Source: Aurelia coerulea (taxonomy: Eukaryota; Cnidaria; Scyphozoa; Semaeostomeae; Ulmaridae). From it: a stretch of 64,000 bases of DNA. Within the stretch, counting starts at the first letter, position 1, and each line of letters starts with the position of its first letter. The position numbers were made by a program, and so were the translations under genes. Below, piece after piece: positions 6,940 through 63,576 of this stretch. A model generated the notes under the pieces. That model had not been told where the DNA came from. It saw nothing but the letters and a program-made list of their open reading frames with translations, and did no database searches. The DNA lies in assembly GCA_039566865.1 (NCBI GenBank), contig CM076957.1:9681896-9745895 (forward strand), given 5' to 3'.

Positions 6940-7298
6940 CTGGAATTCCCTATCAGGCCATCCGGGATTCAGCAATTGCTAAAAAAAGTTTTAGCAGCAC
7001 TGCCGAGTTGCCAAGGTAGCCTCAAAGGAATCAATAGAACTTTAAAACGCCTCCAATCCCTTCTCGAATTTATAAAGGACAAAGAGATTATGTAGAGTGA
7101 CACAGGATTTTATTGTTTTAATTGTAAATGTAACATTTTTATGCACATTTTTGTTTGTAAACAACTTCTTTGGTATAAATTCTCGGCTGCCCAGTAAAGT
7201 TGTAGACTGATGAAGATTTTTAATCGAACGTATTTACAAAAACAGTTTAATTTCTCTTATTTCATGTTCTGTTTTTTTCAATGGTGGTCTAGTTTTTA

Positions 7299-7300
<2 letters not shown>
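6940..7300 (+). mobile_element. Penelope-like element (group C type), 3' untranslated end only
   Basis: The sequence CCCTATCAGGCCATCCGGGA at about 6949 recurs, with variation, downstream of the GIY-YIG genes at 12.7, 16.4 and 27.4 kb. The following GGATTCAGCAATTGCTAAAAA and TAGCCTCAAAGGA words match the 3' untranslated region of the element at 30.1-33.1 kb. It ends with the shared ATAAATTCTCGGCTGCC and hammerhead-like blocks, then (ATT)n. No coding part remains, so this copy is strongly 5' truncated. A 78-residue open frame at 6859-7095 is part of this non-coding tail, not a gene. Confidence 0.75.
7207..7230 (+). ncRNA. Hammerhead-ribozyme-like core, PLE 3' end (site 1)
   Basis: CTGATGA, one unpaired A, helix GATT-TTT-AATC, then GAAC where the other copies have GAAA. 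One A of the conserved GAAA is missing, so this copy is probably inactive. It lies about 70 bp before the (ATT)n tract, as at the other PLE ends. Helices I and III are not demonstrated. Confidence 0.5.
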
Positions 7301-7349
<49 letters not shown>

Positions 7350-7377
7350 TCATTAGTATTATTATTATTATTATTAT
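7301..7377. repeat. (ATT)n microsatellite between a PLE end and an R2-like end
   Basis: About 77 bp of ATT repeats with a few interruptions. The 3' end of a plus-strand PLE abuts the left side and the 3' end of a minus-strand R2-like element abuts the right side, so two elements lie tail to tail across it. Confidence 0.95.
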
Positions 7378-7504
7378 GGTTCGTATTATCACGCTCAGTA
7401 TTACACTGGTAGTTTTGTCCTTTCGATCTGGTTAGAACTAGTAACCTCAGGTCTAAGGGTTTTATACACTGATCTTTATCCTCCTTAAAAATCCAAGAGA
7501 AAGT

Positions 7505-8393
7505 CTACATTTCCAATGTTCTTCGTAATATTCTTGCAGTTCCAAGCAGCGTACGTTTTTGCAATGCCTCTGTTCTGATGTTAACACCAATTTTCTTTAT
7601 CCATGTTTCTAGATTTTTTGATATCATGCCTAGTGCATCAATAACAATCGGGATGACTTCAGTCTTCTTCATTCCCCAAAGGGATGCAATCTCTCGCCTT
7701 AGATCTTGGTATTTTTCTACCTTTTCTTGCTCCTTATTTCCTACTCTCGCATCATTCGGAACAGCTATGTCAATGATTTTACACTCCTTTTGCAACTTCT
7801 CAACAACGACAATATCTGGTCTTCGGCTCTGGATAAAATGATCACATTGAATGGTAAAGTCCCATAATATCTTGGTCTCTTCATTTTCTAGCACACTTTG
7901 TGGCTCATGCCCGTACCATTTCTTTTCTCTTTCAAAACCATACATACCACATAGTTCCCAATGAATGATTTGCGCAACACTGTCATGCCTTGCTTTGTAT
8001 TGTTTTTGAGCAAGTTTACTGCATTCGCTAACGAGGTGGGAAATGCTTTCCCCTTTGGCACCACACAATCTACAGAACGGAGATTCAGATGTTTTATCGA
8101 TATAGAATTTGGAATAATTGGTTCTTAGAGCTTGTTCTTGGGCGGAGAAAATCAATGACACTGTGCCAGATTTGAGATCTGACTTTCTCACCCAATTCCA
8201 AGATTTAGTCTCATCTACATCCTCATTGATCTCTCGCCACGCATTCTTTAACTCTTCCGTAGCTGCCTTCTTAAACTCATCTGGCTGTATGCAGGATTCT
8301 GTCTCGAGAACTTTCGACTTTTTCGTCGGTTTAAGTAGTGTCTCTGAGCTATGGTTGATATACCATCCCAGGCTATTTTCTTCAGATGGATAT
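7505..8393 (-). pseudogene. R2/NeSL-like element, C-terminal zinc knuckle and restriction-like endonuclease
   Basis: From EENSLGWYINHSSETLL at 8393 the minus-strand frame runs to the stop at 7505. It carries a CCHC motif (CRLC, H, C within CRLCGAKGESISHLVSEC) and then a restriction-like endonuclease signature, RRPDIVVV followed about 12 residues later by IIDIAVP (the PD...D core), ending LLGTARILRRTLEM. This is the C-terminal half of the target-cleaving protein of R2/R4/NeSL-group LINEs. Its natural N-terminal continuation, ending GLISCEGCIRA, lies immediately alongside on the opposite strand (8394-8735). The frame running on from 8393 to 8626 is an antisense shadow of that inverted segment. 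Confidence 0.8.
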
Positions 8394-8735
8394 AAATATC
8401 TTGGGATGCTCGAGCTAGATAGAGTGATGGAGAATGATATGAAAGAACGGTTTAATAGAGAATATTTCAGAAGAGTTAAGCTAGTCCTGAAGTCAGGGCT
8501 CAATGACAAGAATAAGATCCTAGCTGCAAATACTTGGGCTGTTTCGCTATTGAGGTATAGTGGAGGAATCATACGGTGGACCAAAGATGAACTAAAGCGA
8601 ATGGATAGGAAAACGCGAAAGCTCATGACTATTCATGGAACATTGCACCCTAAAAGCGATGTAGACAGGATCTATGTCCCACGTGGAAAAGGTGGCAAAG
8701 GATTAATCAGCTGTGAAGGTTGCATCCGAGCTGTA
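8394..8735 (+). pseudogene. R2/NeSL-like element, inverted RT thumb segment
   Basis: The plus-strand frame from KYLGMLELDRVMENDMKERF to KGGKGLISCEGCIRA is the thumb/linker region that follows the RT palm in R2-like proteins. The homologous stretch occurs at 22.75-23.45 kb, where YYRRVKLVTKSELNGSNK and GRGLTQLE correspond. Its last residue (A, near 8735) is continued exactly by the first residue of the minus-strand frame at 8393. The segment is therefore a 5' inversion of one insertion, the arrangement made by twin priming. An ATT-rich stretch (about 8736-8772) bounds it. Confidence 0.75.
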
Positions 8736-8847
8736 TTATTTTTATTAATCCGGGTATTATTATTATTTGAACAGGGCGGGGAGCGGTACGGCTATCGCAA
8801 GATAGTGGTATTAATTGCCTTTTTGTCGCTGATAAAGACCACAAAAT

Positions 8848-9585
8848 GACCTGCAGTCATATATTTCAGATACCCCAAGTAGCTCACTGATCATAACAGG
8901 TGGCGACTTCAATGCAAAAACTGGCAGCTCACATAATGACCACCCAGAAACAATGGGAAAGTTTGGAAAGGGAATCACCAACACAAACGGAGAAAATCTC
9001 TTAGAGTTTGCAAGATCAAACAGACTGATACTATGTAATACACTTTTCTATCATAAAATGGCTCATAGAACGACATGGGAATCCCCTGGCAATAACCCAG
9101 TTAGAAATCAGATCGATTACATCCTCGTAAAACAGAACGCTCGAAAGCTGGTAAAAAACTGCCGATCTTACAATGGCACGACAACATATACTGACCATCG
9201 AATAGTAATATGTGATGTAGAACTCAAATGGTACAAAATGTTTCAGAAAAAGAAAATCAAATCAAATAAGTTTGATATGCAAAAACTGAAAAACGAAACG
9301 ATCAAACAAAAGTACACAGAAAGTGTGCAAGAAAAGCTAAATGATGAAGCCGAGCAGAAAAGCGCACAAGAGCAATGGAACATCATAAAAGATGCATGCG
9401 TAACGTCCGCCGAGACACATTTGAGAAAAGACAGGCCTAAAGAAAAATTTACCTCAATAGAATTCCAAACACTATGTGAAAAACAACAAAAACTGAGAAA
9501 AGATATTAACTCCCTTAAGGATGCCGAGAAGAGAAAAACACTGAAGCAAGAAAGAAACAGAGTACAAAAGCAAATAAAGATTTGA
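8848..9585 (+). pseudogene. APE endonuclease C-terminal half and linker
   Basis: The open frame begins DLQSYISDTPSSSLIITGGDFNAKTG. GDFN is the endonuclease DFN motif, followed by NQIDYILVKQ and YTDHRIV (the DH catalytic pair near the domain end). The Asn/His residues nearer the N-terminus are absent because the copy is truncated. A lysine-rich coiled linker follows up to TAG/TGA at 9585, where a frameshift passes to the next frame (QKQIKI, then KENNRLLEEQ). Confidence 0.75.
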
Positions 9586-10103
9586 AACGAAAAGAAAACA
9601 ATAGACTTTTAGAAGAGCAAATAAGCGAAATAGAGGCGTGCAAAAATGACTCCAACAGACTCTTTGCAACCATGAGAATTTTGTACAGAAAACATCCAAG
9701 TGATCTTCTCATAGAAAAACAAGTTGCAAACAATCAATCAAATAAAACTGTAACAGCGTGTCCTAGGCAACAAGTACAAATCATCACAAACCACTTCACC
9801 AACGTTTTTAACAAACAAGATGAACCAGAGATACCGAGAGTCAAACCAGTCAAAATGAAAACTCCCTTCTCAGAAGAAGAGGTACAAAGAGCCATAAAAT
9901 CAATGAAAAACAATAAGAGTGCGGGCATAGATGATGTAACAAGCGAACTGATAAAATATGGACCACTGAATGAAATCTCGAAAAGAATTGCATATTTACT
10001 TAATCACATCGCAGAACACGGAGACACACCAGAGGAAATTCATAAAGGGATACTCGTTCCCTTTCAAAACCCGGAAAGCCAAAAGGATCCTGCGCAAATT
10101 TAA
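9582..10103 (+). pseudogene. LINE RT, fingers region
   Basis: Overlaps the preceding frame by 4 bases in a shifted phase. It contains FSEEEVQRAIKSMKNNKSAG and IDDVTSELIKYG, the RT block before motif A (KSAGIDDV-type), then GDTPEEIHKGILVPFQNP. It breaks at 10103 by another frameshift. Sequence on either side reads through as one RT. Confidence 0.75.
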
Positions 10104-11335: not shown

Positions 11336-11371
11336 ATTAAGACGGAAGAGCCAGTAAGAAGAAGAAGAAGA

Positions 11372-11374
<3 letters not shown>

Positions 11375-11452: not shown

Positions 11453-12502
11453 CCATGCAACGCAATTCATAAACTTTTATGCAAACTGATGATATTCCGT
11501 GAAAACACTAACAAAAGTTGCAACCGAAGTAGAAGCACGAGATCGCAACTGTCTATTAAAACAGCAAGTTACTGAAAAGAATAAAGACAACAGAGTTCCT
11601 CAAGTAATTCATCGGCACCAGAAGTTTAAGGGACTCTCCCAAATACTACAAAGACACTACCATTTCATGATAATTGGACATCCAGATCTCAAACAGGTAT
11701 TCCCGGAACCACCAATAATTTCCTACCGAAGAAATCCAAATATGCACAATCATCTGGTTCAAACAAAGCGACAAAAAGAATACAATGGCCGGCTATTCTG
11801 TGCGCTGTACGTTAGAAAAAACAAAGAAAAGAGGACGTCCATGCAAATTGTGTTGCCACATGGGACAAAGAAATGACATAACAAATGCCAAGACTGGCAA
11901 AACATGTCGTATTGACGGTGGTTCCTGCAACAGCAAAAATGTGATTTATGCCGCTGAATGTATGAAGCATGAGCTAATATACGTCGGATATACATCCACG
12001 GCTTTGAGCCAAAGATTTAATAAACACCGGAGTGATGCTGGGCACGATCCGGATGCAACAGAACTGGGCAGACATTTTCACGAGAGTGAATCTTGCAATT
12101 TTGATAGGGATTTAAAAGTACATGTCCTGCAGAGATTAGACGGAGATCGTGATAAACTGGAACATTACGAAAACTTGTGGATATCGCGATTAGACTCCAG
12201 AGAACCAAACGGACTAAATTCTAGCCTTAATGAGCTCGGAAAGACATATCTAGCAGTTTAATAAAGTTTCGTCACATTAATCATTCTCCATTCTCTATTT
12301 CATTGTTAGAATTTTAAACTCCTTTTATTTATGGAACACAACATTCGCATTTGATAACGTTAGATTGTAAAACATTTATTCGAACATTATTTGACTGATG
12401 AAGGTCTACGATAGATCGACAATTTTAGAAATCAAACAAACTAGTCTTGTTTTCTCTGCGTATCATCAACCTGAAACAAGAATACTCAATCTTACTTGAC
12501 GC
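11453..12502 (+). pseudogene. Penelope-like element group A, GIY-YIG end (5' truncated)
   Basis: The plus-strand frame 11499-11790 (KVATEVEARDRNCLLKQQV, HRHQKFKGLSQILQRHYH, FPEPPIISYRRNPN) matches the region before the nuclease in the longer copy at 28-30 kb. A frameshift near 11785 leads into GYSVRCT, a Cys-rich linker (GRPCKLC), then NVIYAAECMKHELIYVGYTS (the GIY and YIG parts), SQRFNKHRSDAG, and a closing ENLWISRLDSREPNGLN, up to a TAA at 12261. GIY-YIG nucleases cut the target DNA in PLE retrotransposition. RT sequence is absent. The 3' untranslated region ends with a hammerhead-like core and (ATT)n. Confidence 0.85.
12395..12422 (+). ncRNA. Hammerhead-ribozyme-like core, PLE group A (site 2)
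   Basis: CTGATGA, one unpaired A, helix GGTCT-ACGAT-AGATC (one G-T wobble), then GACAA in place of GAAA. The helix differs in sequence from those of the other groups but still pairs. The GAC suggests this copy is decayed. Confidence 0.45.
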
Positions 12503-12536: not shown

Positions 12537-13179
12537 CGTACCCGCGGGCCTAAACGAGAGGGCAGCAGATATTGAGCTCGATATGTTTGCGTGTGGGTCG
12601 GCATGAATTCTGCCATTACACTTAACTTAGGAGTCTGGGTCTACTTGGGCGGGGCACTCTAGACTTTGGCTTTGTGTTGTTTACACATGGTGGTAGGGTT
12701 GAATTCCCTATCATGCCATCCGGGATTTAGCAGAGGCAAAAATAGTTTTTAGCCGTTTTGCAAATCCTTTGAGGGTCATTGGATGGATGTTTTTCTCAGT
12801 AGTTCTTGGCTCCAACAACATGAGAGTAGGGCTGCCAGTCCCAGGGGTTTTGATTGGAGACGGAAAAGGAGGGAAGGAGGAATTGAAAATTGAATGGAGA
12901 TCCACTTTAGAGACGGGGTTTTTTATAGTTGATATCTTAGTCGTATTGTATGATGTTGTTGCCTTTATATTTCACTTTGTTGTCTCCATTGTTATTTAAA
13001 GTAAAACAAGTTTTTGTAAACCGTATTGTAATGCAAATTAAATATTTATGTATTTATACTTGCTCGGCTGTCCCAGTTTTAGTAACTGACGAAGATTTTA
13101 TAATCGAAACGTTTTTATTTAAACAGTTGTGTTTCTACATTTTATTTTCTGTTTATTCTGGATGTGGTTTTAGTTTATA

Positions 13180-15592: not shown

Positions 15593-16276
15593 ATGCAAAA
15601 GCCGATGCCCGACCCATCTAGGCCAGTTGTCTCACTCGCTTTGAAATCTAGCTGTGAGACTGGTGATTTTGAGTGGTCAGCGGTTTGTGAAACGAAATGT
15701 CACTGTGTTAAAAGTCTTAAAGATGAACTTGTTAGAGCAAAATTGCCAGTTGTTGGTGAGACTCCATTGGTTAAGGGTACCTACAGGTGCAATGGCAGGA
15801 AGAGTTGCCAGATCTGCAACGTCATAACTGAGGGGGATAATTTTGAAAACTCGGACGAAAATCGATCTTTCAAAAATTTTTCGGGGAGGTATAACTGCAA
15901 CTCAGAGAATGTAGTGTATTTGCTACAATGTGAGGTTTGCAACAAAAAGTATGTAGGTAGCCCCAAAACAAAATTTAGGCAAAGATTCAATGTTTACAAG
16001 TCATATTTCAGATCTTACGCACGCAAACATAACGAGGGATCACTCGGCAGGGGTAAATTAATCCCACAGGTAAACTTTTTCAGTCATTTCTTTGAGGGGA
16101 GCCACAATGGTAAATTCACGGTTAGGGTTAAAATGATCGATGGGGCTGATGATGTCTTTTCATTGCGACGTAAGGAACTTTTTTGGCAATACAGGCTGGG
16201 AACTTTTTTACCCAAGGGTTTGAATGAACGGGCTGCAGATGTAGAACTCGATATGTTTGCGTGTGGCGTGGCCTAA
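15593..16276 (+). pseudogene. Penelope-like element group B/C, GIY-YIG endonuclease end
   Basis: The frame is open for 227 residues to a TAA at 16276. PLE sequence starts at about residue 40 (KSLKDELVRAKLPVVGE); the first 40 residues are unrelated and come from the flank, so the real element boundary is near 15710. It has a Cys-rich linker (YRCNGRKSCQICNV), the GIY-YIG domain (VVYLLQCEVCNKKYVGS, then FRQRFNVYKSYFRSYARKH), an acidic catalytic region, and FSLRRKELFWQYRLGTF with LNERAADVELDMFACG. The YIG segment reads YVGSP where relatives have YVGST. RT is absent, so this is a 5'-truncated copy whose own 3' untranslated region runs to 16780. Confidence 0.85.
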
Positions 16277-16775
16277 TTCCTGCCATTGTATCTGATGTCT
16301 CTGGGGGGTTTTACTGGCGGTGCTCTATGGTCTTCCTATTTGGCTTCATGTTTTTTTGCATGTGGCGTTAGGGTGGAATCCCCTATCAAGCCATTCAGGA
16401 TTCAGCAATTTGCGAATCATTGAAAGGTTAGATGGGAGGGTCGTGGGGTTGCCGGCTGGATCCCTTGGAGGTTTTGTCTGTGACTATTTTGATCCTCCAG
16501 GGTGAACATTTGCTAATGTGCCAACCATTTCATTTTCTTGTTTACGCTAAAAAACAGTTTGGAACAAAACGTGATTTTCATTCCCACTTGGTTTTAATTT
16601 CGGGGGTAGTCATGTTTCCTGGGAATAGGGTTCTTTGTAGTAAAAATATAATTTCACTTTATCTTTAGTTTTACCTAGCCTTGTTTATCACGTAGTATAA
16701 ATACTCGGTTGTCCTTTAGAAAGTAGTGCTGACGAAGATTTTTAATCGAAACGTTCCAAGATTTTAACAGTTGTG

Positions 16776-26537: not shown

Positions 26538-27310
26538 GGGTTAAAGGTCTGGATCGTACTTCCTTACTTTCTCGGCAACAACAACCAAAGGACGACACAC
26601 GGATGCCATTGGTGTTGACGTACCATCCAGCTTTGCATAAGGTCTACGAAATTCTGCGCAAATCTGAGAATATTCTTTGCGTAGATGAGGGGCACAAAAA
26701 TGTTTTTAGGGACAAAATCTTTGTATCTTTTAGGAAGGCAAAAAGTCTTAAGGATAATCTGGTACGGGCGAAGCTTCAGCCATTGGAGGAGGAGGAGTTG
26801 GTGGAAAAGGGGACATTTAAGTGCAATGGCAGAAGGAGTTGTCAAATCTGTCCTCTAATACAAGAAGGGGATACCTTTAAAAATGCAGATGATTCTAGGA
26901 CATTTAAAGTATTTTCAGGGGCCTTTCATTGCAACACAGAAAGTGTGGTTTATATGTTGCAGTGTAACTGTTGCAATAAAAAGTACATAGGCAGCACAAA
27001 AAACAAGTTTAGGCAAAGGTTTAATGTTTATAAATCGTATTTCAGGACATACGCACGCAAACATACCGAGGGCACTCTTGGGACAGGGAAACCTGTCCCA
27101 CAAGCTGGCTTTTTTAGCCATTTTTTCGATGAACAACACGGGGGAAACTTTTCTGTTACCATCAAAATTATTGACACAGCAGAGGATGTCTACTCACTTC
27201 GAAGAAAAGAGTTATTTTGGCAATACAAACTTGGAACATTCGTACCCGCGGGCCTAAACGAGAGGGCAGCAGATATTGAGCTCGATATGTTTGCGTGTGG
27301 GTCGGCATGA
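26538..27310 (+). CDS. Penelope-like GIY-YIG endonuclease region (group B)
   Basis: The frame is open from the element edge to TGA at 27310; the first ATG is at 26603 (MPLVLTYHPALHKVYEIL). It includes the post-RT region with FVSFRKAKSLKDNLVRAKL, a Cys linker (FKCNGRRSCQICPL), and the nuclease: VVYMLQCNCCNKKYIGSTK (GIY and YIG parts), FRQRFNVYKSYFRTYARKH (catalytic Arg region), a His-rich loop, YSLRRKELFWQYKLGTF and a closing LNERAADIELDMFACGSA. No lesion is visible within it. As a 5'-truncated piece it lacks RT and a natural start, so translation is doubtful. Confidence 0.85.
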
Positions 27311-27789
27311 ATTCTGCCATTACACTTAACTTAGGAGTCTGGGTCTACTTGGGCGGGGCACTCTAGACTTTGGCTTTGTGTTGTTTACACATGGTGGTAG
27401 GGTGGAATTCCCTATCATGCCATCCGGGATTTAGCAGAGGCAAAAATAGTTTTTAGCCGTTTTGCAAATCCTTTGAGGGTCATTGGATGGATGTTTTTCT
27501 CAGTAGTTCTTGGCTCCAACAACATGAGAGTAGGGCTGCCAGTCCCAGGGGTTTCGATTGGAGACGGAAAAGGAGGGAAGGAGGAATTGAAAATTGAATG
27601 GAGATCCACTTTAGAGACGGGGTTTTTTATAGTTGATATCTTAGTCGTATTGTATGATGTTGTTGCCTTTATATTTCACTTTGTTGTCTCCATTGTTATT
27701 TAAAGTAAAACAAGTTTTTGTAAACCGTATTGTAATGCAAATTAAATATTTATGTATTTATACTTGCTCGGCTGTCCCAGTTTTAGTAA

Positions 27790-27814
27790 CTGACGAAGAT
27801 TTTATAATCGAAAC
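27790..27814 (+). ncRNA. Hammerhead-ribozyme-like core, PLE group B (site 5)
   Basis: CTGACGA, one unpaired A, helix GATT-TTAT-AATC, then GAAAC. It is identical to site 3. Confidence 0.55.
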
Positions 27815-27886
27815 GTTTTTATTTAAACAGTTGTGTTTCTACATTTTATTTTCTGTTTATTCTGGATGTGGTTTTAGTTTATATAT

Positions 27887-27910
27887 ATTATTATTATTAT
27901 TATTATTATT
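27887..27910. repeat. (ATT)n microsatellite between two opposed PLEs
   Basis: 24 bp of ATT. The 3' end of group B (plus strand) and the 3' end of group A (minus strand) meet here tail to tail. Confidence 0.95.
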
Positions 27911-27984
27911 GTAAAAGTAAAGATTGATACGTCTTGTTTGCTAGTTGATAACACGCAAGGAAAACAAGATATTTTCATGAAAAT

Positions 27985-28011
27985 TTTCGATCTTTCGTGG
28001 ATCTTCTTCAG
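27985..28011 (-). ncRNA. Hammerhead-ribozyme-like core, PLE group A (site 6)
   Basis: On the minus strand: CTGAAGA, one unpaired A, helix GATC-CACGAAA-GATC, then GAAAA. The helix has a different sequence from the group B copies yet still pairs fully. It overlaps the end of the coding frame (stop at 28008). Confidence 0.55.
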
Positions 28012-30017
28012 TCATAATTAAGCGTTCTATAAATAACTAAAACGTTAAGTAGCTGTTGGAGAATGTTGCGTTCTATGAACTTTCGAATTAAGAGTTCGCT
28101 AAACTGTAAAGTTCGATTAATGTGGCGAAACAGATAAAGTAAATACAAATTATGATTAGGAAAAAGCTTGTAATATGTCCTTCCGAATTCATTCATGGTA
28201 TTGTTCAGACCACGAGGTTCTCTCGTGTCGAGCCTAGTTATCCAGACATTTTCATAAAATTCCAGAGTGTTATGATCACCCTCTACATTTTGCAAGATGT
28301 GTACAGTTAAGTCTCTGTCGAAATCACAATCGTGGCTTTCGAAAAAGTGTCTTCCCAGTTCTGTGGCGTCCGGATCATGCTTTGCATCGCTTCTATGCTT
28401 GTTGAATCTTTGACTCAATGTTGTCGATGTGTAGCCTACGTATAACTGTTTGTGTTTTCTGCACTCGGCGGCATAAATAACATTTTTTGTGGAACAATTC
28501 CCTCCTTCAATGAGGCATGATTTACCTGAATTTATGTTGTGCAATTTGTCCACTTGACCCATGTGACTGCATAGTTTGCAGGGCCGGCCCCGCTTCTTTG
28601 TGCCTTTCTGCGTGCATCTGACGCTGTAACCATTTCGTCTGATCTTTTGTTCAGATTGAATTAGTGTGGCTCGAATATTAGTATTTCTTCTGAAGGAAAC
28701 GATTGGAGGCTCTGGAAATACATTTTTAAGCTTTGGATGTTCATCAATCATGGTCCGATAGTTCCCGTGCAATAGTTTAGAAATTCCTTTGAATTTCTGA
28801 TGCCAGTTCACCACTAGGGGTATCCTCTGATTTGAAATGCTGGATATTTTCGCTTTTGGCTGTAGTAATTCCTGACGATCCTTCTGCGCAACGACCTCAG
28901 CAATTCGTATCATCTTGCCTCTTGAATATCCTCGCTGAACATAAAACTTGACAAACTCGGATGCATGCTTTCGATAGTCGTTGATAAGAGTGCAAATTCT
29001 TCGGATTCTAATGAATTGTGAAAGTGGGTTGGAGCGTATGGTATGCGGAGGATGATCAGATGTATTATGTAAATAGGTGTGTGTTGCTGTTGGTTTACTG
29101 TATAGTTCGGTTAGGATTTTGCCATCCTGGATCTTTACCCTTGTATCAAGAAATACAACGTTTGAGATCGAGTATTCCGATGTAAACTTGATATTCGAAT
29201 TTTACTTGTTTTTGGCAGCGTACGAATTACAAAATGATAGAAAATGGTTAAGACTTTTCAGGTCATCTTTCCATACGAAAAAAATGTCATCTATAAATCT
29301 GACCCATGATACTGGACTCTTGCCATATAGTGTTGCATAATCTTCTAATAATTTCGTTTCAAATTGAGACATAAATAGGTTTGCGAAATTCACGGCCATT
29401 GGTGTTCCCATGGCAGTTCCTTTGATTTGATGAAAATACTGTCCCATGAAAGATAACGTGTTCGACTTGAGGATAAACAATATGAGGTCAGAAATGACCT
29501 TGGACGGAATTGACTTATTTTTGCGTTTTTCTAGCGCTTCGAAACATGCTTTAGCGCCCTCGTCATGGTCGATATTAGGATAAAGAGAGCTCACGTCCAT
29601 TGTTACTAAGAAAATATCGTTCTGATCTTTAATTTCATTGTTTTGACTCTCGACATGCTTTACAAATTCCGTTGTATCTTTGATGTAGGAAGCAGTTTTA
29701 GTTGCAGCGGGTTTTGTGAAGCTGTCTACCCACTCAGAAAGTTTTGCTGTACATGAATCATATCCACTACAGATAGGGCGCAGTGGTGGAAGATTTTCAA
29801 AAACTTTGTGAATCTTCGGTAGGCCATAAAAACAGGGTGTTCTATTACCCTCCCTTAATTTGGTATCTTCAACGTCGTCGATGTAACCATTATTGAGCAT
29901 ATCAGTGATTTTCTTGTTTAAAGTCTCTCGATAATCCGGGTTTGGATCTGTGAAGATTTGTTCATAGAAGGTTTCATCTTGAAACATTGCGAAACAATAC
30001 AATGCATTGCGAAACAT
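28008..30017 (-). pseudogene. Penelope-like RT plus GIY-YIG protein, one nonsense codon
   Basis: One frame of about 670 codons. RT part: NRTPCFYGLPKIHK, LRPICSGYDSCTAKLSEWVD, FLVTMDVSSLYPNIDHDEGA (motif A), GTAMGTPMAVNFANLFM (motif B) and WVRFIDDIFFVW (motif C with the FIDD form usual in PLEs). A TAA at 29202-29204 follows SYAAKNK. The same frame then resumes with NSNIKFTSEYS, VVFLDTRVKIQDGKI, the thumb, a Cys linker (RGRPCKLCSHMG) and the nuclease NVIYAAECRKHKQLYVGYTS with FNKHRSDAKHDPDATELGRH. Apart from the nonsense codon and the missing N-terminus it is intact, so inactivation is recent. Confidence 0.9.
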
Positions 30018-30024
30018 TGCGTGC

Positions 30025-30025
<1 letters not shown>

Positions 30026-30089
<64 letters not shown>
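30026..30089. repeat. (ATT)n microsatellite between PLE 5' ends
   Basis: 64 bp of ATT. The truncated 5' end of group A (minus strand) lies on the left and the truncated 5' end of group C (plus strand) lies on the right. Confidence 0.95.
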
Positions 30090-31260
30090 GAAACAGACTA
30101 TTGTCACCCAGAACCCCCTGCGGGCATGCTGCAACTTCAGACTGTCAGAAAATCAGGGAATTTGTGAACTTTTTAAATGGAGCGCATGAATCGATAAAGT
30201 TCACAGCAGAATGGTCCACAGAAAAGGTGAATTTTTTTTATGTTCAAGTCATCAAACAGGGTAACAAACTTATAACGGATTTGTTTACAAAGCCTACTGA
30301 TACCCATCAACTCTTGCATCGAGCTTCATGTCATTCTAACCACACCAAAAAGGGAATTCTATATAGCCAGGCCCTTCGAATTCGTCGTATTTGCTCAGAG
30401 GAACAGTTTTTTCAAAACAGGTTGGGAGATTTAAAATCTTGCCTTTTGGAAAGGGGTTACAGTGGAAACTAGGTTGACAGCCAAATTGACCGGGTGCGGG
30501 ATAAAAATCGTGCTACTTTATTGGATACCAGGCCCAAGGAAAAAGGTGATATGAAAATACCATTAGTGCTAACTTATCACCCAGCCATGCATAAAGTTTA
30601 TGAAATCCTTCGCGAAAACCAAAATGTGTTGCTGGTAAACAAGGAACACAGGGAAATTTTTAAGGACAAAATATTCGTAACCTTTAGGAGGGCAAAAGTT
30701 TGAAGGATAAACTTGTGCGCGCCAAGCTGCCAAGTATCGATGAAGAGTTGATGGAAAAGGGCACTTTCAGATGTAATGGTAGAAAGAGTTGTCAGATTTG
30801 CCCTTTGATCAGGGAGGGGGATTCATTTCAAAATTCTGAATCCACAAGGTCTTTCACAAACTTCTCAGGGCGATTTGATTGCAACTCTGATCATGTGGTT
30901 TATCTGTTGCAGTGCGAGTCATGCAACATAAAATATGTCGGTAGCACTAAGACAAAATTTCGGCAAAGGTTTAATGTTTATAAATCCTATTTTAGAACAT
31001 ATGCGCGCAAACACAACGAAAATTCTCTTGATAAGGGGAAACCTGTTCCACAAGCAAGTTTATTTAGTCATTTTTTTGAAAATGGACACAACGGTAATTT
31101 TCGGGTTGGGATTAAGATCATAGATGGGGCAGATGATGTTTTTTCACTTCGAAGGAAAGAGTTGTTTTGGCAATATCGACTTGAAACTTTTGCGCCAAAG
31201 GGTCTCAATGAAAGAGCTGCAGACGTGGAATTGGACGTTTTTGCATGCGGAACAGCTTAG
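30090..31260 (+). pseudogene. Penelope-like thumb and GIY-YIG region (group C)
   Basis: Starts in the RT thumb (KVNFFYVQVIKQGNKLITDL, TDLFTKPTDTHQLLHRASCH, ALRIRRICSEEQFFQNRLGD). A TAG at 30470-30472 interrupts. The frame resumes (IPLVLTYHPAMHKVYEIL) and shifts by one base near 30690. The nuclease follows in the new frame: FRCNGRKSCQICPL, VVYLLQCESCNIKYVGSTK, FRQRFNVYKSYFRTYARKH, FSLRRKELFWQYRLETF and LNERAADVELDVFACGTA. It is related to groups at 15.7 and 26.5 kb but distinct from group A. Confidence 0.85.
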
Positions 31261-31367
31261 ATTCTACCATTCCATCTGATTGTCCCAAGAGGTTATGCTG
31301 GCGTCTGTTTTGTGTTTGCCCTTTGTGGCTTCGCGCGGGATTCAACTATCGCTAAAACAAGAGTTAA

Positions 31368-32528
31368 GGTAACTCTGCTTTCCGCTCTAGTGCACAGCAA
31401 AATGCCGTTTCTCAAAACCACTCTCCTCAGAATACAGTTAATTTCTCCAATATTATTCGGCCTATCAAAAAGCGGTAAAAAGGATGTTGTTCTGTATAAT
31501 CTGGGCAATCAAAAGATGTATAAATCGCAATGTTTCCGTCAACTCTGGTTTTGCAAATCCTAGTTCAAATCTTTCTGCTAATTTCAGAAAATTGGATTTA
31601 TCTCCAAAACTACTCGAAAAATGTTCGATTTTTTTTCGTTTCATCTTTAGCTAGGTTGTTGATCTACAACTTTGCCAAGTCTGATTGAAAAAGCTAGGCT
31701 AGATTTCCTGCAATCGAATTTCGTATTTCTGTTTACTTTTCGACAGCAAAATGGAGAAACCTTGGTCAACAGATTACCATGCTATGAAGCACGCTTGCTA
31801 AAGCTCAGGCTTGAAATAACTTTCAGAAGTTTTTCAATTGGAAAACAAATGAACGTCATCTTTTGGGAATACCATACGCAGGTCTCAAAAGAAATCCTTA
31901 GTGCGCTTGTAAAAGTAACATTTGCATCTATTGATTAAAAGTTACTGATTTTTACCAGCAACTTCACGAAACCATGCTTTGGGTGTCTTTCGAGACTTTC
32001 GTAAGCATTCACAGATTATCAATTTCTTTTTAGAGTCCACAATGAGCGTAGATCTTAGATCAAGAACTAATTTTTTTTGCAAAAACATTCTACGGGCGTT
32101 CAAATCGTTCTGCATGGGCTAAACTGTTGACCAACGCTTTTCCCCTTCGATGTCGAAAAGTAAACAGAAATGTAAAATTCGATTGCAGGAAATCTAGCCT
32201 AGCTTTTTCAATCAGACTTGGCAAAGTTGTAGATCAACTACTTAGCTAATGATGGAGCGAAAAAAAATCGAAACTTTTTCGAGTAGTTTTGGAGGTAAAT
32301 CCACTTTTCTGAAATCAGCAAAAAGATTTGAGCAAGGATTTGCGAAGCCAGAGTTGACGGAAACATTGCGATTTATGCATCTTTCGATTGCCGAGATTAT
32401 ACAGAACAACATCCTTTTTACCGCTTTTCGATAGACCGAATAATATTGGAGAAATTAACTGTTTTCTGAGGAGAGTGGTTTTGCGAAACGGCATCTCGCT
32501 GTGCACTAGAGCGGAAAGCAGAGTTACC
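31368..32528. mobile_element. Foldback DNA transposon with TTAA target duplication
   Basis: 1,161 bp bounded by TTAA at 31364-31367 and 32529-32532. The left end GGTAACTCTGCTTTCCGCTC is repeated inverted at the right end, and similarity continues inward for about 420 bp per arm (roughly 31368-31790 and 32110-32528) at an estimated 90-95 percent near the tips. The central 320 bp show no coding capacity. TTAA duplication is typical of piggyBac and Kolobok superfamilies, but the tips do not start with CCC, so the superfamily is open. It interrupts the untranslated tail of a PLE, which reads through cleanly when it is removed. Confidence 0.85.
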
Positions 32529-32532
32529 TTAA

Positions 32533-32830: not shown

Positions 32831-32996
32831 GCTAAATTGGTGCAAAGCAGGAAAAATTCTATTGTTTGTCAGTTGTAAAGGTATTAGGTTTTTTAGATAG
32901 ATTCATTGTAAATATAGCATTATCGTCATGTAAATAATTTTAGGTGTAAATAACGTAATGTCTATAAATTCTCGGCTGCCTTGTAAAGTTTTTATA

Positions 32997-33020
32997 CTGA
33001 AGAAGATTTTATATCGAAAC
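32997..33020 (+). ncRNA. Hammerhead-ribozyme-like core, PLE group C (site 7)
   Basis: CTGAAGA, one unpaired A, short helix GAT-TTTAT-ATC, then GAAAC. It fits the core consensus with a three-pair helix II. Confidence 0.5.
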
Positions 33021-33096
33021 GTTTTTGCGACATCCAACAGTTTTTGTTTTTATATGTATATATTCTGTTTGATTTGAAGGATGGTTTAGTTTTTTA

Positions 33097-44400: not shown

Positions 44401-45819
44401 GACAAGAATCATGACAAGAAACAAAAGTGGATGACGGATGAGATCTTAGGAATGATGAGAGAAAGGAAAGAGAACAAAAATGATATCATAAAATATCGAG
44501 AATGGAATACGAAAATACAGAAAGCATGTAGAGAAGCTAAAGAAAAGTATTGGGCAGAAAAGTGCAAAGAAGTGGAAGAATTGGACAAGCAAAATAGATC
44601 GAAGGAAATGTATCAAAAAGTCAAAGAAATGACAAGAAAAAGGAAAAATAACAGAGGAAACGTGTGCGTAGAGGATAAGGACGGGAACATGTTATTTGAG
44701 AACCATGAAATTGAGGAACGATGGAATGAATACATAGGCGAACTTTATCACGTAGAACGAGATGAAAAACCAGAAATAGGAAGTGATGATGGTCAAGTAA
44801 TACTTAAGTCAGAAGTGCAGCATGTAATAGAGAACTTAAGAAATGATAAAGCTAGTGGAATGGATGAGATATCAAGTGAAATGCTTAAAGCATTAGATGA
44901 AGAAGGAATAAAAGTCATCACGAAGTTATGCAATCTCATATATGAAAGTGAACACATACCATCATTATTAAAGATTCCAAAAAAACAAAATGCTACCAAA
45001 TGCTCGCAACATCATACTATTAGTCTCATGAACCATGTACTAAAAGTTTTTATCAAAATAATCACCAACAGAAATAGACCATCTATAGAACAAGAAATAA
45101 GCGAAGAACAAAATAGATTTATGACAGGGAAAGGAACACGAGAAGGGCTGTTCAATATACGAATCATTACGGAAAGATGCCTAGACCTAGGGATAGATTT
45201 ATACGTATGCTTCATTGATTATGAAAAGGCATTTGATCGAGTTGATCACGTAAAACTCATAGAAAGTCTGACGGAAACTGACATATGCGCAAAAGAGATA
45301 AGATTAATAAGAAACATATACTGGAGTGAAAAGGCATTTGTGGAAACAAGCAATGGCAACTCAACAAAACCAATAAGTATAACGAGAGGAGTGAGACAAG
45401 GTTGCGTCTTATCACCAATATTGTTCAACTGGTATACCGAGAGAATATTTAGAAAACTGAAAGAAAAACCTGGGATAGACATCGGAGGACATGTCATCAA
45501 CAATCTCAGATATGCCGACGATACGGTACTTCTAGCAACATCAATAGAAGACCTCCAAGACATATTAGAAACAGTTAACAGAGAAGGAGAGAAATACGGG
45601 ATGAAAATGAACATAGGAAAGACAAAATCAATGATTCTGAGCAGAAATGAGGAGAATAGACAAATGAATTTAAAGTTAAATGGGGAATCAATTGATCAAG
45701 TAAATAGATTTACATATCTAGGGCAACTGATTGTACCTAATGGGAAATCGGATGATGAAATCAAGAGAAGAATAGAAATAGCACGAGGCGCTTTCAGGAG
45801 TATGTCACACACACACTAA
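44401..45819 (+). pseudogene. RTE-type reverse transcriptase (copy 1)
   Basis: Open for about 470 residues from the element edge. It has a basic coiled linker, NLRNDKASGMDEISSEMLKA, MNHVLKVFIKIITNRNRPSI, LYVCFIDYEKAFDRVDHVKL (motif A), ITRGVRQGCVLSPILFNWYT (motif B) and NLRYADDTVLLATSIEDLQ (motif C). The thumb is NRFTYLGQLIVPNGKSDDEI, then the frame ends SMSHTH-stop because of a length change in a CA run at 45806-45818. All catalytic residues are present, but the protein is cut before its C-terminal part. Confidence 0.85.
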
Positions 45820-46292
45820 CTTCCAAAGATCTGTCAATCAAAATAAGGAAAAGACTAGTTGACTGTTACATATGGTCTACACTCTTAGACGGTGCAGAAA
45901 CATGGACTATATCTAAAAATATGATGGACAGGATTAGAGCCTTTGAGATGTGGGTTTGGCGCAAAATACAGAGGATTTCATGGCAAAGTCATACTAAAAA
46001 TGAGACAGTGTTAGAAAGAATAGGAGAGAAAAGAAACATCATGCAAATAATAATGACAAGGAAACTAACATTCTTCGGTCACATGATAAGGAGGGACAAC
46101 TTACATCGTGTCATACTGGAAGGTCGAATACCATCAAGACGCCCCAGAGGAAGACCAAGAGCTATGTGGATGGACAACATTGGAGATTGGGTGGGAAGAA
46201 AACATTATGGATGGCTTGTAAGAAAAGCCCAGGATAGAGGAAAGTGGAAACAATTCATAGCAGCCTACCTACAACGAGTAGACGGCACATGA
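45806..46292 (+). pseudogene. RTE-type LINE C-terminal part (copy 1)
   Basis: After the CA-run frameshift the protein continues TSKDLSIKIRKRLVDCYIWS, LLDGAETWTISKNMMDRIRA, MWVWRKIQRISWQSHTKNET, MTRKLTFFGHMIRRDNLHRV and RRPRGRPRAMWMDNIGDW, ending VDGT-stop at 46292. The GHMIRRD...RPRGRPR block closes many RTE-like and related RTs. Confidence 0.8.
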
Positions 46293-46306
46293 GAAGTAGT
46301 TTCTTT

Positions 46307-48988: not shown

Positions 48989-50326
48989 CTTCTTCTTCTC
49001 ATGTGCCGTCTACTCGTTGTAGGTAGGCTGCTATGAATTGTTTCCACTTTCCTCTATCCTGGGCTTTTCTTACAAGCCATCCATAATGTTTTCTTCCCAC
49101 CCAATCTCCAATGTTGTCCATCCACATAGCTCTTGGTCTTCCTCTGGGGCGTCTTGATGGTATTCGACCTTCCAGTATGACACGATGTAAGTTGTCCCTC
49201 CTTATCATGTGACCGAAGAATGTTAGTTTCCTTGTCATTATTATTTGCATGATGTTTCTTTTCTCTCCTATTCTTTCTAACACTGTCTCATTTTTAGTAT
49301 GACTTTGCCATGAAATCCTCTGTATTTTGCGCCAAACCCACATCTCAAAGGCTCTAATCCTGTCCATCATATTTTTAGATATAGTCCATGTTTCTGCACC
49401 GTCTAAGAGTGTAGACCATATGTAACAGTCAACTAGTCTTTTCCTTATTTTGATTGACAGATCTTTGGAAGTTAGTGTGTGTGTGACATACTCCTGAAAG
49501 CGCCTCGTGCTATTTCTATTCTTCTCTTGATTTCATCATCCGATTTCCCATTAGGTACAATCAGTTGCCCTAGATATGTAAATCTATTTACTTGATCAAT
49601 TGATTCCCCATTTAACTTTAAATTCATTTGTCTATTCTCCTCATTTCTGCTCAGAATCATTGATTTTGTCTTTCCTATGTTCATTTTCATCCCGTATTTC
49701 TCTCCTTCTCTGTTAACTGTTCCTAATATGTCTTGGAGGTCTTCTATTGATGTTGCTAGAAGTACCGTATCGTCGGCATATCTGAGATTGTTGATGACAT
49801 GTCCTCCGATGTCTATCCCAGGTTTTCCTTTCAGTTTTCTAAATATTCTCTCTGTATACCAGTTGAACAATATTGGTGATAAGACGCAACCTTGTCTCAC
49901 TCCTCTCGTTATACTTATTGGTTTTGTTGAGTTGCCATTGCTTGTTTCCACAAATGCCTTTTGGCTCCAGTATATGTTTCTTATTAATCTTATCTCTTTT
50001 GCGCATATGTCAGTTTCCCTCAGACTTTCTATGAGTTTTACGTGATCAACTCGATCAAATGCCTTTTCATAATCAATGAAGCATACGTATAAATCTATCC
50101 CTAGGTCTGGCATCTTTCCGTAATGATTCGTATATTGAACAGCCCTTCTCGTGTTCCTTTCCCTGTCATAAATCCATTTTGTTCTTCGCTTATTTCTTGT
50201 TCTATAGATGGTCTATTTCTGTTGGTGATTATTTTAATAAAAACTTTTAGTACATGGTTCATGAGACGAATAGTACGATGTTGCGAGCATTTGGTAGCAT
50301 TTTGTTTTTTTGGAATCTTTAATAAT
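48989..50326 (-). pseudogene. RTE-type LINE copy 2, inverted relative to copy 1
   Basis: A minus-strand copy of the 3' 1,338 bp of the element at 44.4-46.3 kb. It starts inside LLKIPKKQNATKCSQHRTIR and carries motif A (YVCFIDYEKAFDRVDHVKL), motif B (TRGVRQGCVLSPILFNWY) and motif C (LRYADDTVLLATS). The same SMSHTH-stop frameshift in the CA run is at about 49472-49485, and the C-terminal part is at 49370-48999. Protein differences from copy 1 are few (for example RTIR versus HTIS). It ends with (CTT)n at 48989 on the plus strand, which is (AAG)n on the element strand. Confidence 0.9.
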
Positions 50327-59799: not shown

Positions 59800-59821
59800 A
59801 GGCATAACTAGTTAAGATTTG

Positions 59822-60420: not shown

Positions 60421-60698
60421 AATCTTCGTCAAGAATGATATACCAGACGTCCTTCTTTTTTGTTTGTCAACTTATTTTCATTCGACTATCTTTATCTAGC
60501 TATACATATTTACAATATATACAACTAATCCAAATCGAACATACAAATATATAAATTAAGAAATGAAGAAATTAATAGATAAGTTAAATAAGTTAGATAT
60601 TCAAGACATATATGGGCAAGGTTTACTAGATATAATTGAATTGACAGGCGTAACAAATATACAAATATTTTCTACTATTTCATAATCCAGATAATTTT

Positions 60699-61500
60699 CT
60701 AAAGTTTGGGTGAATGTTGACAAGCATTGCATTTACAATTTGGTCCATTCCATTGTTTTATCATGCGTTTAAAAGAATTTAAGTTGTCGGCAGATTTAGT
60801 TTCATTTGGCAATGCATTCCAGATTTGAGGTCCTAGTGATCGAAGACTGTTTGAACCAAAAGTGACTTGATTTGGTCTATAATGTTGTAAGTCGTACGGA
60901 TTTCGTGATGAATATCTGGAAGATCTTATTTTGAAAATATCACGCATGAAAGATGGGTTGAGATGTTTCAAGGTCTTGAAAACTTCTATACAGAGAACTC
61001 TCAGACGGGAAACATGCATAGTACATCTTTCTGATTTCAAGAGTAATTCACTGTAAGAAGATCGGTGATCATTGTACAAAAATCGAAGAGCACGTTCTTG
61101 AATCTTCTCAATTTTGTGCAAAGACTTAGCTGATGAGAAGTACCATACTAGCGGGCAATAGTTAAAATTTGAATATACAAAACTTTGCACAAGAATTTTC
61201 CTTTCATTAAAGCCAATGAATTGTTTGAGTCTTTTTAACACATTAAGTTGTGATGCTGCTTTTCTGCAAAGTTCAGAGATATGCTGTTCAAAATTTAGCT
61301 TATAATCTAGCTGAATACCTAACAATTTGACTGTTTCTTCCGACTGGATAATTTTACCTTGGATGTTGATATTCTCTCCGCAGGTATTTGTTTGATCCTT
61401 TCTAATAAGGAGTGCATGGAATTTTTCTTGGTTTAGCAATCATTTGATTCTGTTTCAGCCAAGTCAAAGCAACTCCAGCTTCTTCTTCCAGTACCCCAAT
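60699..61500 (-). pseudogene. L2/CR1-like RT, thumb and C-terminus (second copy)
   Basis: The frame 61439-60699 reads NQEKFHALLIRKDQTNTCGE, LLGIQLDYKLNFEQHISELC, FNYCPLVWYFSSAKSLHKIE, RALRFLYNDHRSSYSELLLK and a Cys tail (GPNCKCNACQHSPKL). It matches the intact copy at 36.9-37.8 kb almost block for block. It is joined to the RT palm upstream by two compensating frameshifts (near 61503 and 61437). Confidence 0.85.
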
Positions 61501-62330
61501 CAAATCTGATAGGGTCCTGGAAAATAAGCCAGAGTATTATCGTCGGCATAATTATGCAATGTTGCTTGTTTGATAAACAAAAAGAGAACGTTTATGTAAA
61601 CATTAAACAGAATAGGGCCCAAAACTGAGCCTTGAGGTACCCCTGATAAAATAGTTTGGAAAGAACTGTACGTATTATTGATTCTCACAGACTGTTTCCG
61701 CCGTTTTAGATAAGAGTAGATAAGGACAAGAGCATTTTCATCCAAGCCATAGGCATGTAGTTTGGCTATTAGCAGGTCGTGTGGAATACAATCAAAGGCT
61801 TTTGATAGATCCATAAGGATGACCCCTACAATATTATCATTATCAAGTTTAGCTCTCCATTCTTCGATCATTCTTATCAAGACATGTTGCGTGCCATATG
61901 CTTTTCTGTAGGCAGCGATGAAGATTGAAAGGGTCTCATCTAGGTATGGGATGAGTTGGTTTTTCAAAATTTTTTCATAGATTTTGGAAAAGATATTTAA
62001 AATACTGACTGGACGAAAGTTTCTTTCGACTGTACGATTAGGCTCCCCTTTATCTAAAGGGCATACTGCGGCTCGTTTTCCATTATCTGGAAACCTATGT
62101 GTACGTATGCTGCTGTTAATAGCATCTGTAAGAGGAACTGTGAGCTCGTCTGCTGCCAATAAAACAAGTTTTGGAGGTATTTGATCTTCTCTAGTAGATT
62201 TTCTACTGTCCAAAGACCTTAGTTGTTTCCTAACTTCGGAATTTTGCACTTCGTTAAAGGAAAATGAGTCAAACTTGTTGTCAGGGTTTTGAATGATAGA
62301 TTTCTTCGTGGCAGCAAAAATATTTTGGCT
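61500..62330 (-). pseudogene. L2/CR1-like RT, fingers and palm (second copy)
   Basis: From about 62330 the minus strand reads ATKKSIIQNPDNKFDSFSFN, EVRKQLRSLDSRKSTREDQI (the STG of the intact copy has become STR), NFRPVSILNIFSKIYEKILK, ILMDLSKAFDCIPHDLLIAK (motif A), SGVPQGSVLGPILFNVYINV (motif B) and HNYADDNTLAYF (motif C). It is 5' truncated near 62330, then enters unrelated sequence. It is the same family as 35.7-37.8 kb but opposite in orientation. Confidence 0.85.
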
Positions 62331-62711
62331 TCAACAGAAATAGAGGGTATTGCATTGAAAGCGCACGTTTTCTTGGATCTATGATATGGCATGCAATGCC
62401 ATCTTCCATAAATGGGTCCCAGACATGCAGTCTCCGAGAAAACATTATAACCTACTATTGTGGTTGTCACTTCAGACTATATAAATTGTCAATTGATAAT
62501 TTAGAGTTTTTATAGTTGTAGTTAGATTATGAATTTCATACTTTCTTTGTAATTTAGATTTGATTTTTTATTGTTATGTATTTCGGTTTTGGTTGGCATT
62601 AATTAGCTCATTAGCTAGACAAGAGCCAACCTTAATCATTGTTATTATGTTTTTTATCTCAGGATAAAATCCCCAGTAAGTTCTTCCCAAAAGCAAGCTA
62701 GAACAACTAGC

Positions 62712-63312
62712 CTCGGGTTTCGAGAACCTTTCTCAATGTTCTTGCAGTTCCTAACAACGCCGCTTTCTGTATCATTTCAGTCCTGATCTTTGTCCTTATT
62801 TGCTCTATGTACTGCTCTGCTTCTTTTGTGACACATGCCAACGCATTAACAACAACTGAAGTGACATTTATTTTTCGGAGGCACCATAATCTTGCAATTT
62901 CTCTTTTTATGTTTTGATATTTTTCGATTTTCTCTTATTCCTTCTGTTTTTATCCTTGTATCCCTGGCATGGCTATGTCGATGATCAAGCACTCTTTTTC
63001 TGATTTTAGCACTACGACAATGTCTGGTCTCCTATGCCTGATTTCATAATCTGTGTTTATATTGAAGTCCCACAGTACCTTAATGTTTTCATTTTCAGTA
63101 ACGCCTTCTGGCTAATGATTGTACCACTGTTCAGCCCTGGGTAGGTCATACCTCTTGCAAATCTCCCAGTGAACTATCCGTGCTACATTGTCGTGACGTC
63201 GCTTGTATTCTTTCTTGGCTAATTTGCTACATTCACATGAAATATGATTCACCGTTTCCCCCTCCTCGCCACACATTCTGCAAGTCGGCGATTCTCTTGA
63301 TTCGTCGATATT
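62712..63312 (-). pseudogene. R2/NeSL-like C-terminal endonuclease fragment
   Basis: The minus-strand translation gives DESRESPTCRMCGEEGETVN, HISCECSKLAKKEYKRRHDN (a CCHC knuckle), IVHWEICKRYDLPRAEQWYN, then a stop before PEGVTENENIKVLWDF, HRRPDIVVVLKSEKECLIID with IAMP (PD...D core), further stops, and LLGTARTLRKVLETRG at the end. It is the fourth R2-like copy in the window and the most decayed. No (ATT)n tract lies at its ends. Confidence 0.75.
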
Positions 63313-63546
63313 ATGTTTGTTATCATTTGTACATAGAAATCGGAGCGTTGGCAGGAAAACGAACTTTCACCAAAAAACGAAGTACAAGAATTGTGACGAT
63401 AATCATGTTCATATTGAAAAAGACATTCCAAGTTTGACAAAATAATTTAGAGACGTATCCAGGTTGCAGTATGACAATTCCGATGAATAAATAGAATGAA
63501 ATAAATTGATATTAGACCAGTCCATGGTTATTATTATTTGTTGACG

Positions 63547-63576
63547 TTTCGAAGCAATTCTGTGCTTCATCATCAG
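63547..63576 (-). ncRNA. Hammerhead-ribozyme-like core, PLE group E (site 8)
   Basis: On the minus strand: CTGATGA, one unpaired T, helix GAAGC-ACAGAATT-GCTTC, then GAAACGTCAAC. The five-pair helix has a sequence unlike all other sites, and the flanking core is unchanged. It lies about 100 bp after the GIY-YIG frame of the element at the right edge. Confidence 0.55.

Follow-up and report, generated by a model that had tools for sequence, protein, structure and literature searches.

The 64-kb window considered here, the whole stretch at positions 9681896-9745895 of contig C15 of the Aurelia coerulea genome, is rich in retroelements and contains, beside Penelope-like elements, eight short sequences in which a CTGANGA box and a GAAA box enclose a small helix. 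Are these sequences hammerhead ribozymes, and how would they act, given that they leave no space for a helix III hairpin? From the window and from searches of the genome (574 Mb in 294 contigs) we favor, with a probability of roughly 0.8, the reading that the sites are minimal type I hammerheads in the pseudo-long terminal repeats (pseudo-LTRs) of Penelope-like elements, which would join as dimers, would lie at the 5' end of the element RNA, and would have remained uncut in most of the RNAs that served as templates.

All eight cores named in a preliminary description of the window were recovered in place by a core scan; for the two minus-strand sites the CTGANGA box starts at 28011 and 63576, the low ends having been listed before. 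The window holds 44 CTGANGA boxes. A helix of at least 3 bp and then a GAAA box with at most one mismatch come after 12 of these, and the eight sites are exactly those among the 12 that have one nucleotide between CTGANGA and the helix. Helix II, of 3-6 bp, is present at all of them, and GAAA is intact at six, the sites at 7207 (GAAC, one A lost) and 12395 (GACA) having one defect each in this box. Taken alone, the loose pattern CTGANGAN{4,12}GAAA is weak evidence for the eight sites: it matches the window 8 times, three of the matches being named sites, against 2.36 expected, and this number was attained by 1 of 100 shuffles. Such modest enrichment, and the fortuitous look of the four remaining candidates at 11486, 32466 and, on the minus strand, 31430 and 43891 (zero or two nucleotides before the helix), would suit chance matches in AT-rich repeats. 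We nevertheless reject this origin for the eight sites, its probability being close to nil, on account of the ranking by a covariance model, the genome-wide excess over controls and the predominant placement of the helix one nucleotide after the box, all described below. All eight sites are confirmed as genuine.

By blastn the sites form three independent groups: A (7207, 13086, its copy 27790, 16729 and 32997), B (12395 and 28011) and C (63576, which stands apart). The sequences at 13086 and 27790 duplicate each other, with 99.6% identity over 674 bp; 7207, 32997, 16729 and 13086 are partly joined at 73-78% identity, and the two group B members are joined via their coding regions. The earlier claim of helix II covariation holds in that pairing is kept; it does not hold as eight independent cases, because the near-identity of 13086 and 27790 leaves fewer than eight independent sequences within the window.

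The covariance model was derived from 23 copies located elsewhere in the genome, with helix II stems unlike those of the window; two further copies with the GAT stem found in group A (L163 and L169) had been removed beforehand from the 25. MAFFT left helix II pairs 3 and up unaligned, so that the model, R1, holds only 5 base pairs. Its eight best hits in the window are the eight sites: 63539-63580 on the minus strand (group C, helix II GAAGCA/TGCTTC with T as the extra nucleotide; 34.6 bits, E 1.9e-7), 32993-33027 (group A; 33.7 bits, E 3.4e-7), 27977-28015 on the minus strand (group B, helix II GATC/GATC, followed by AATT; 32.9 bits, E 5.9e-7), 13082-13117 and the identical sequence at 27786-27821 (group A, followed by ACGT; 29.8 bits, E 5.1e-6 each), 16725-16759 (group A; 28.4 bits, E 1.3e-5), and the two decayed sites at 7203-7236 (group A, helix II GATT/AATC; 25.1 bits, E 1.2e-4) and 12391-12429 (group B, helix II GGTCTA/TAGATC, followed by AATT; 14.6 bits, E 0.15). 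The next hit in the window has an E value of 0.42. Controls were 22 viral contigs out of 120 fetched, pre-selected for CTGANGAAG..CGAAACGT, which score at most 21.5 bits. Viral contigs were rejected as a source of relatives and used only as controls, since their helices resemble chance: among the 80 of the 120 fetched loci that were used, the look-alikes have a helix of at most 2 bp in 73.

The genome, marked as that of an animal by 43 Wnt matches, contains thousands of copies of the hammerhead-type signal, many of them related, so that the counts are not of independent events. The pattern CTGANGAAGATN{3,12}ATCGAAA has 2364 matches against 1 in the control, and CTGANGAN{8,26}CGAAACGTH has 4311 against 88 for the reversed pattern. 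Among 100 listed matches to the latter, the longest helix of at least 3 bp lies at offset 1 in 86, at offset 2 in one and at offset 0 in none, 13 having no helix; the corresponding numbers for the 56 distinct sequences among them are 42, 1, 0 and 13. The single extra nucleotide before helix II, which the preliminary description had set apart from the textbook core, is thus real and common. The stems between the core boxes vary with pairing kept (GGC/GCC, GATT/AATC, GAGC/GCTC, GCCC/GGGC, GGCAC/GTGCC, GAACCA/TGGTTC, GAAGCA/TGCTTC and GAGACA/TGTCTC), which is covariation of helix II at the scale of the genome. For closer analysis 60 stretches were fetched and 62 motifs parsed, of which we retained 49 that had a helix II of 2 bp or more at offset 1 with none longer elsewhere, helix I not being a criterion. 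The extra nucleotide in these 49 copies is A in 29, T in 17, G in 2 and C in 1.

Helix I could not be proved from the window in the preliminary description and is now backed by covariation across the genome. The four pairs next to the core are formed, from the first to the fourth, in 43, 37, 33 and 34 of the 49 copies, counts that none of 2000 reshufflings of the 3' sides among copies attains. Examples are GCGA/TCGC (L175), GTGA/TCAC (L177), ATGA/TCAT (L178), TTCTCA/TGAGAA (L176) and TGCT/AGCA (L165). Hammerhead cleavage requires a base other than G at position 17. The base after ACGT, which would occupy this position, is G in 55 of 4366 cases and not G in 4311, and this rule supports the predicted placement of the cut site, which in the 32997 element would fall after 33023.

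Helix III is where these motifs depart from a self-contained ribozyme. The four bases that run from A15.1 through U16.1 offer no space for a hairpin, and helix III, if formed, therefore needs two copies whose bases are self-complementary. Self-complementary tetranucleotides are indeed what is found there: ACGT, AATT, ATAT and AGCT. With AATT in place of ACGT the pattern given above has 498 genome matches against 47 in the control. The pattern CTGANGANGN{6,18}, which allows the palindromes AGCT and ATAT and the non-palindromes AGAT and ATCT, has 1382 against 10, a count not strictly comparable with that for the CGAAACGTH pattern, as its gap is narrower and it has a fixed G. Among 100 listed matches to this two-palindrome/two-non-palindrome pattern, 96 have ATAT, 3 AGCT, 1 ATCT and none AGAT; 34 of the 35 distinct sequences among them are palindromic, and the single ATCT match has a 3-bp helix. 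Four non-palindromes taken together gave 249 genome matches against 31 in the control, and 14 of the 25 non-palindromes tallied among 100 listed matches are ATGT, which would be the product of CpG decay of ACGT. Separately, a non-palindromic ATGT motif occurs three times in one orientation within 2.4 kb at G000:C6:6924127-6926509, possibly a retrozyme-like array.

Several helix II stems are shared by different palindromes: GAGACA occurs with ACGT (L142) and with ATAT (C1:2977913), GATC with AATT (L177) and ATAT (C1:32496312), and GCTGCC with AATT (L176) and ATAT (C1:38503274). Two matching changes are needed for each such switch. A family C locus with AATT for ACGT (L180) was not counted as a compensatory change, since its flank resembles a local duplication. 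The palindrome rule suggests that two ribozymes join through a palindromic helix III, the coordinated change of both halves of the palindrome being genetic evidence that the helix is shared. It might instead reflect a head-to-head inverted DNA structure or a target preference: head-to-head copies are common here, and junction palindromes are described for Penelope elements of Adineta (PMC3846280). The palindrome, however, is internal to the element, 20-odd nt away from the head-to-head junction, and lies exactly at the place of hammerhead helix III, adjoining position H17, which makes a DNA-level origin highly improbable.

The assignment of the motifs to Penelope-like elements, made in the preliminary description, is borne out by reading frames for the GIY-YIG endonuclease domain, by flank homology and by paired pseudo-LTRs. 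A GIY-YIG frame precedes four of the sites (12395, 16729, 27790 and 28011) by no more than 0.5 kb. These frames belong to a group B coding remnant at 11457-12261 with the GIY-YIG domain at its end (Pfam 3.2e-7), to the end of a group A open reading frame (ORF) at 15593-16276 that has 69-76% identity to other group A GIY-YIG ORFs and no Pfam hit of its own, to a further group A ORF end with GIY-YIG at 26540-27310 (5.2e-4, just below the cut-off), and to a group B region at 28155-29741 on the minus strand that codes for reverse transcriptase (RT) and GIY-YIG in more than one ORF (RVT_1 4.2e-9, GIY-YIG 9e-7). The site at 32997 follows, after an inserted repeat, a broken group A region for RT and GIY-YIG at 30140-31260 (GIY-YIG 2.7e-4, just below the cut-off), and the site at 13086 belongs to a 5'-truncated copy of the 27790 element. 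Two assignments rest on less: 7207, which lacks a GIY-YIG frame, is placed by its flank, which matches the flank of 32997 with 75% identity along 244 bp, and 63576 follows a weak group C GIY-YIG fragment at 63882-63998 on the minus strand (Pfam E 0.065, below the cut-off, with no match among solved structures). Elsewhere in the genome, locus L129 has the motif in both pseudo-LTRs, 3328 bp apart, on either side of an RT ORF (RVT_1 1.9e-6, below the cut-off), and locus L133 encodes both domains (RVT_1 1.9e-9, GIY-YIG 1.1e-5). The lack of a helix III hairpin and the tandem copies are likewise features of the Penelope type of hammerhead.

Two further observations concern these elements. The 999-aa minus-strand ORF of L133 (G000:C1:24889000-24892400), in the group B frame, has PYDCGLFAIAYAVELA upstream of the RT domain, which we take to resemble a motif of Ulp1/C48-type cysteine proteases; Pfam gives only RVT_1 and GIY-YIG there. 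The repeat ahead of 32997 is a 421-bp inverted repeat of 91% identity (31364-31782 and 32112-32532) between the GIY-YIG ORF (30700-31260) and the motif, as would result from insertion of a terminal-inverted-repeat element into the 32997 element.

Where within the element RNA would the motif lie? TATA boxes of the pseudo-LTRs were found at 7174-7180, 16696-16702 and 32963-32969 and, on the minus strand, at 63606-63612, respectively 33, 33, 34 and 36 nt before CTGANGA, and a TATA-like TTATAC at 13054-13059, 32 nt before the box, recurs in the 27790 copy at 27758, so that six of the eight sites have such a box at -32 to -36. Over 101 distinct genomic copies, TATAWAW clusters at the same positions, -36 to -32, with 33 position counts. 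Copies without TATA that have a TATA-bearing relative (24 in number) part from it 0-6 nt before CTGANGA in 15 cases, several of them diverging inside an ATT repeat; two of the 24 (13086 and L005) score 0 because their own family, with TTATAC, is not among the TATA-bearing relatives, and were kept in the count. Among 268 rows of match starts, refetched places included, 91 lie at -100 to -98, 18 at -91 to -20, 51 at -15 to 0 and 4 at +25 to +36, the 104 at +43 or later having been excluded as apparent artefacts of ATT microsatellites. In addition, the 190 listed sites include 16 neighbor pairs no more than 200 bp apart, of which 11 are head-to-head, with a smallest gap of 9 nt, and the junction of locus L264, taat-c-atta, consists of two helix I strands back to back. 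Given the TATA boxes, the copy ends and the head-to-head copies, the RNA start probably lies about 4 nt ahead of CTGANGA and thereby some 28-30 nt past the TATA box; such a start would also set helix I at 4 bp.

To see how individual insertions begin, we sampled the 32997 family with a query of 75 nt from beyond the cut site, blind to the motif, and classed by eye 30 fetched loci of the 40 scored among 115 candidates. A promoter stretch with a TATA box is carried by 17 of the 30, in three of which (L302, L306 and L307) the match ends just upstream of that box; nine either begin close to or at the 5' edge of the motif or contain reiterated 5' fragments, the start lies inside helix II in four (L296, L299, L309 and L310), and none of the 30 starts at the cut site. 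The four ends inside helix II and the three upstream of TATA, like the ribozyme fragments seen in junction filler, leave room for an RNA that starts further upstream and for ends that record RT stopping at a structured ribozyme. We consider this unlikely, although it is the strongest of the competing accounts: the ends cluster just past the helix I strand at about 28-30 nt after the TATA box, helix I covariation ceases at 4 bp, and two cDNAs can meet with 9 nt between their cores. Reiterated or partial ribozyme fragments are contained in the junctions of loci L268, L269, L291, L304 and L006, which would suit an enzyme that jumps from one RNA 5' end to another.

The ends of insertions bear on whether an element was copied from cut or uncut RNA. 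Searching the genome with 198 nt around 32997 produced 46 rows, of which 11 end at query positions 151-153 and 32 at 191-198. Both ends lie 3' of the cut site, by 32 and about 74 nt, and a motif-bearing copy with such an end therefore came from RNA that was uncut there. Many group A copies terminate on ATT repeats. In the window, the (ATT)n microsatellite at 27887-27910 lies between the 3' ends of the 27790 (plus) and 28011 (minus) elements, which are tail to tail, and different families are likewise arranged on one ATT repeat at L277, L278, L279 and L282. Three tails lacking a hammerhead, one in L202 and a head-to-head pair in L236, start within about 2 nt of the predicted cut site; these loci were fetched for having a hammerhead, and no rate of copies from cut RNA is drawn from them. 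From the 30-locus sample we infer that insertions derive mainly from uncut RNA. An ATT microsatellite also underlies an isoleucine-run ORF at 29987-30140, where the group B element, by its 5' side, adjoins the RT of a group A element, which makes another element junction on an ATT repeat.

We propose the following explanation. Each unit has the CUGANGA/GAAA core, helix II preceded by the extra nucleotide, a helix I of about 4 bp and a 4-nt palindrome (in RNA ACGU, AAUU, AUAU or AGCU) that replaces the helix III hairpin. Two such units, carried by separate RNAs or by the same tandem transcript, would join by the palindrome and cut after the next base, which is not G. The ribozyme would make up the first 30 or so nucleotides of the element RNA, the 5' strand of helix I being its first nucleotides, and the element enzyme would begin copying internally, 30-75 nt past the cut site, priming on ATT-repeat DNA. 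Cutting would then be optional, late or regulated by dimerization, by the element protein, or by both; at the downstream copy it would part the RT start from the element body, and at the upstream copy it would remove the 5' leader. RNA dimerization or protein binding may act as a switch between template and cut message.

The most specific form of this proposal, in which a hammerhead of the first ~30 nt has its start fixed by TATA and can cut only with a second RNA end or a downstream pseudo-LTR supplying the other half of palindromic helix III, is tentative, and we hold its chances to be somewhat short of even. If it is true, many of the solitary minimal hammerheads in such genomes would be short first-strand stubs, begun at the internal RT start and ended at the 5' terminus of an uncut RNA, head-to-head pairs would be the outcome of both target strands being primed together, the two cDNAs having been joined where the RNA 5' end was copied, and dimerization would sense RNA concentration or tandem state, deciding between template and cut message.

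A different role would explain the uncut templates as well, namely that the motif is conserved not as a ribozyme but because it is recognized, as DNA or as RNA, by the Penelope protein or its endonuclease, or because it acts as a promoter-downstream element. The sampled genomic copies stem from uncut RNA, and in the Anolis element a dead ribozyme does not impair insertion, while the protein is believed to bind RNA close to this region (PMC11167929). Recognition as such leaves the rarity of G17, the pairing of helix I across families and the paired palindrome changes unexplained; moreover, cutting of the Anolis element is lost upon mutation of the core and partly regained with a compensating pair (PMC11167929). 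On balance this alternative is improbable.

Several results weigh against the minimal-hammerhead interpretation, in addition to the ends inside helix II and upstream of TATA and the relatedness of many genomic copies. At the window sites of group B, the expected position lacks a TATA box, and over the genome TATA lies within -46 to -28 in only 35 of the 101 copies. Helix I pairs 5-7 are no better than shuffles in the 49 copies. In the window only two sites have a good helix I, 7207 with 7 bp and 28011 with 6 bp; one contiguous pair is present at 16729, 32997 and 12395 and two at 13086/27790 and 63576. One family, with stem GTCCTGC, supplies most of the listed ATAT and AGCT matches, and the cluster of 3' ends at 191-198 adjoins the end of the query itself, near the ATT repeat of the window copy. 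The covariance-model comparison proposed in the preliminary description gave a split outcome: the own-genome model puts the eight sites on top, while the Rfam models had no match at the gathering threshold in the window, none of the 8 window matches at E 10 being a hammerhead, and found no hammerhead at any of 20 other genome loci, nor among the 9 matches at E 1 there. As Rfam is negative for every motif of this kind that was tried, it is uninformative as an arbiter.

The kind to which these motifs belong is already known. Minimal hammerheads lacking helix III, arranged in tandem in Penelope-like elements and cutting as dimers, are reported or proposed in PMC6155905, PMC7761336 and PMC6466107, and thousands of such motifs per genome are in print (PMC6155905, PMC7229834, PMC7761336 and PMC6466107). 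The citing papers credit this minimal type I kind to Cervera & De la Pena 2014 and to Lunse, Weinberg & Breaker 2017. The pseudo-LTR location, the lack of a helix III hairpin and the tandem arrangement are shared with the published Penelope hammerheads, and no difference from them is shown. What is added here is the palindrome covariation, the placement of the RNA end and the genomic traces of mostly uncut templates, the state of the copied RNA, cut or uncut, being recorded in the ends of the many insertions. For the first two we recognized no earlier report in the literature searched, the coverage of which is partial, and their absence from it is not claimed.

A further close comparison is with the Poseidon element PAc of Anolis carolinensis, which has pseudo-LTRs, an enzyme that cuts ATT motifs and two internal RT start sites; in vitro its template is mainly uncut RNA, and its ribozyme needs protein to cut (PMC11167929). 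Stems I and II, the pseudo-LTRs and the two clusters of 3' ends, which resemble the two RT starts of PAc (the second less certainly), are points of likeness. The PAc reading frame starts at stem II, whereas here, with AUG present in the core of 33 of the 49 copies, 28 of 38 such frames meet a stop within ~40 nt downstream, for which reason we rejected the making of an AUG as a general role of the extra nucleotide.

In newt satellite DNA and the avocado sunblotch viroid, helix III is likewise too weak singly and is shared by two copies; there it has one to a few pairs and a loop, the latter being absent here (PMC6155905, PMC6466107). Metazoan retrozymes also carry a type I hammerhead in an animal retroelement, and are described as tandem repeats that are short and non-coding, their hammerheads having canonical helices and loop contacts (PMC7229834). 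Identity with retrozymes was rejected for the present motifs, which lie in or beside coding Penelope-like elements and lack a helix III hairpin. The Adineta Penelope elements have TATA, an Inr and head-to-head pseudo-LTRs, which are explained by antisense self-priming (PMC3846280). The Aurelia genome suggests another account of head-to-head copies, consistent with the Anolis protein, which cuts and extends both target strands (PMC11167929).

A last feature of the window is a pair of inverted copies of an RT ORF region, at 44964-46299 and 48992-50326, with 99.1% identity over 1.3 kb.

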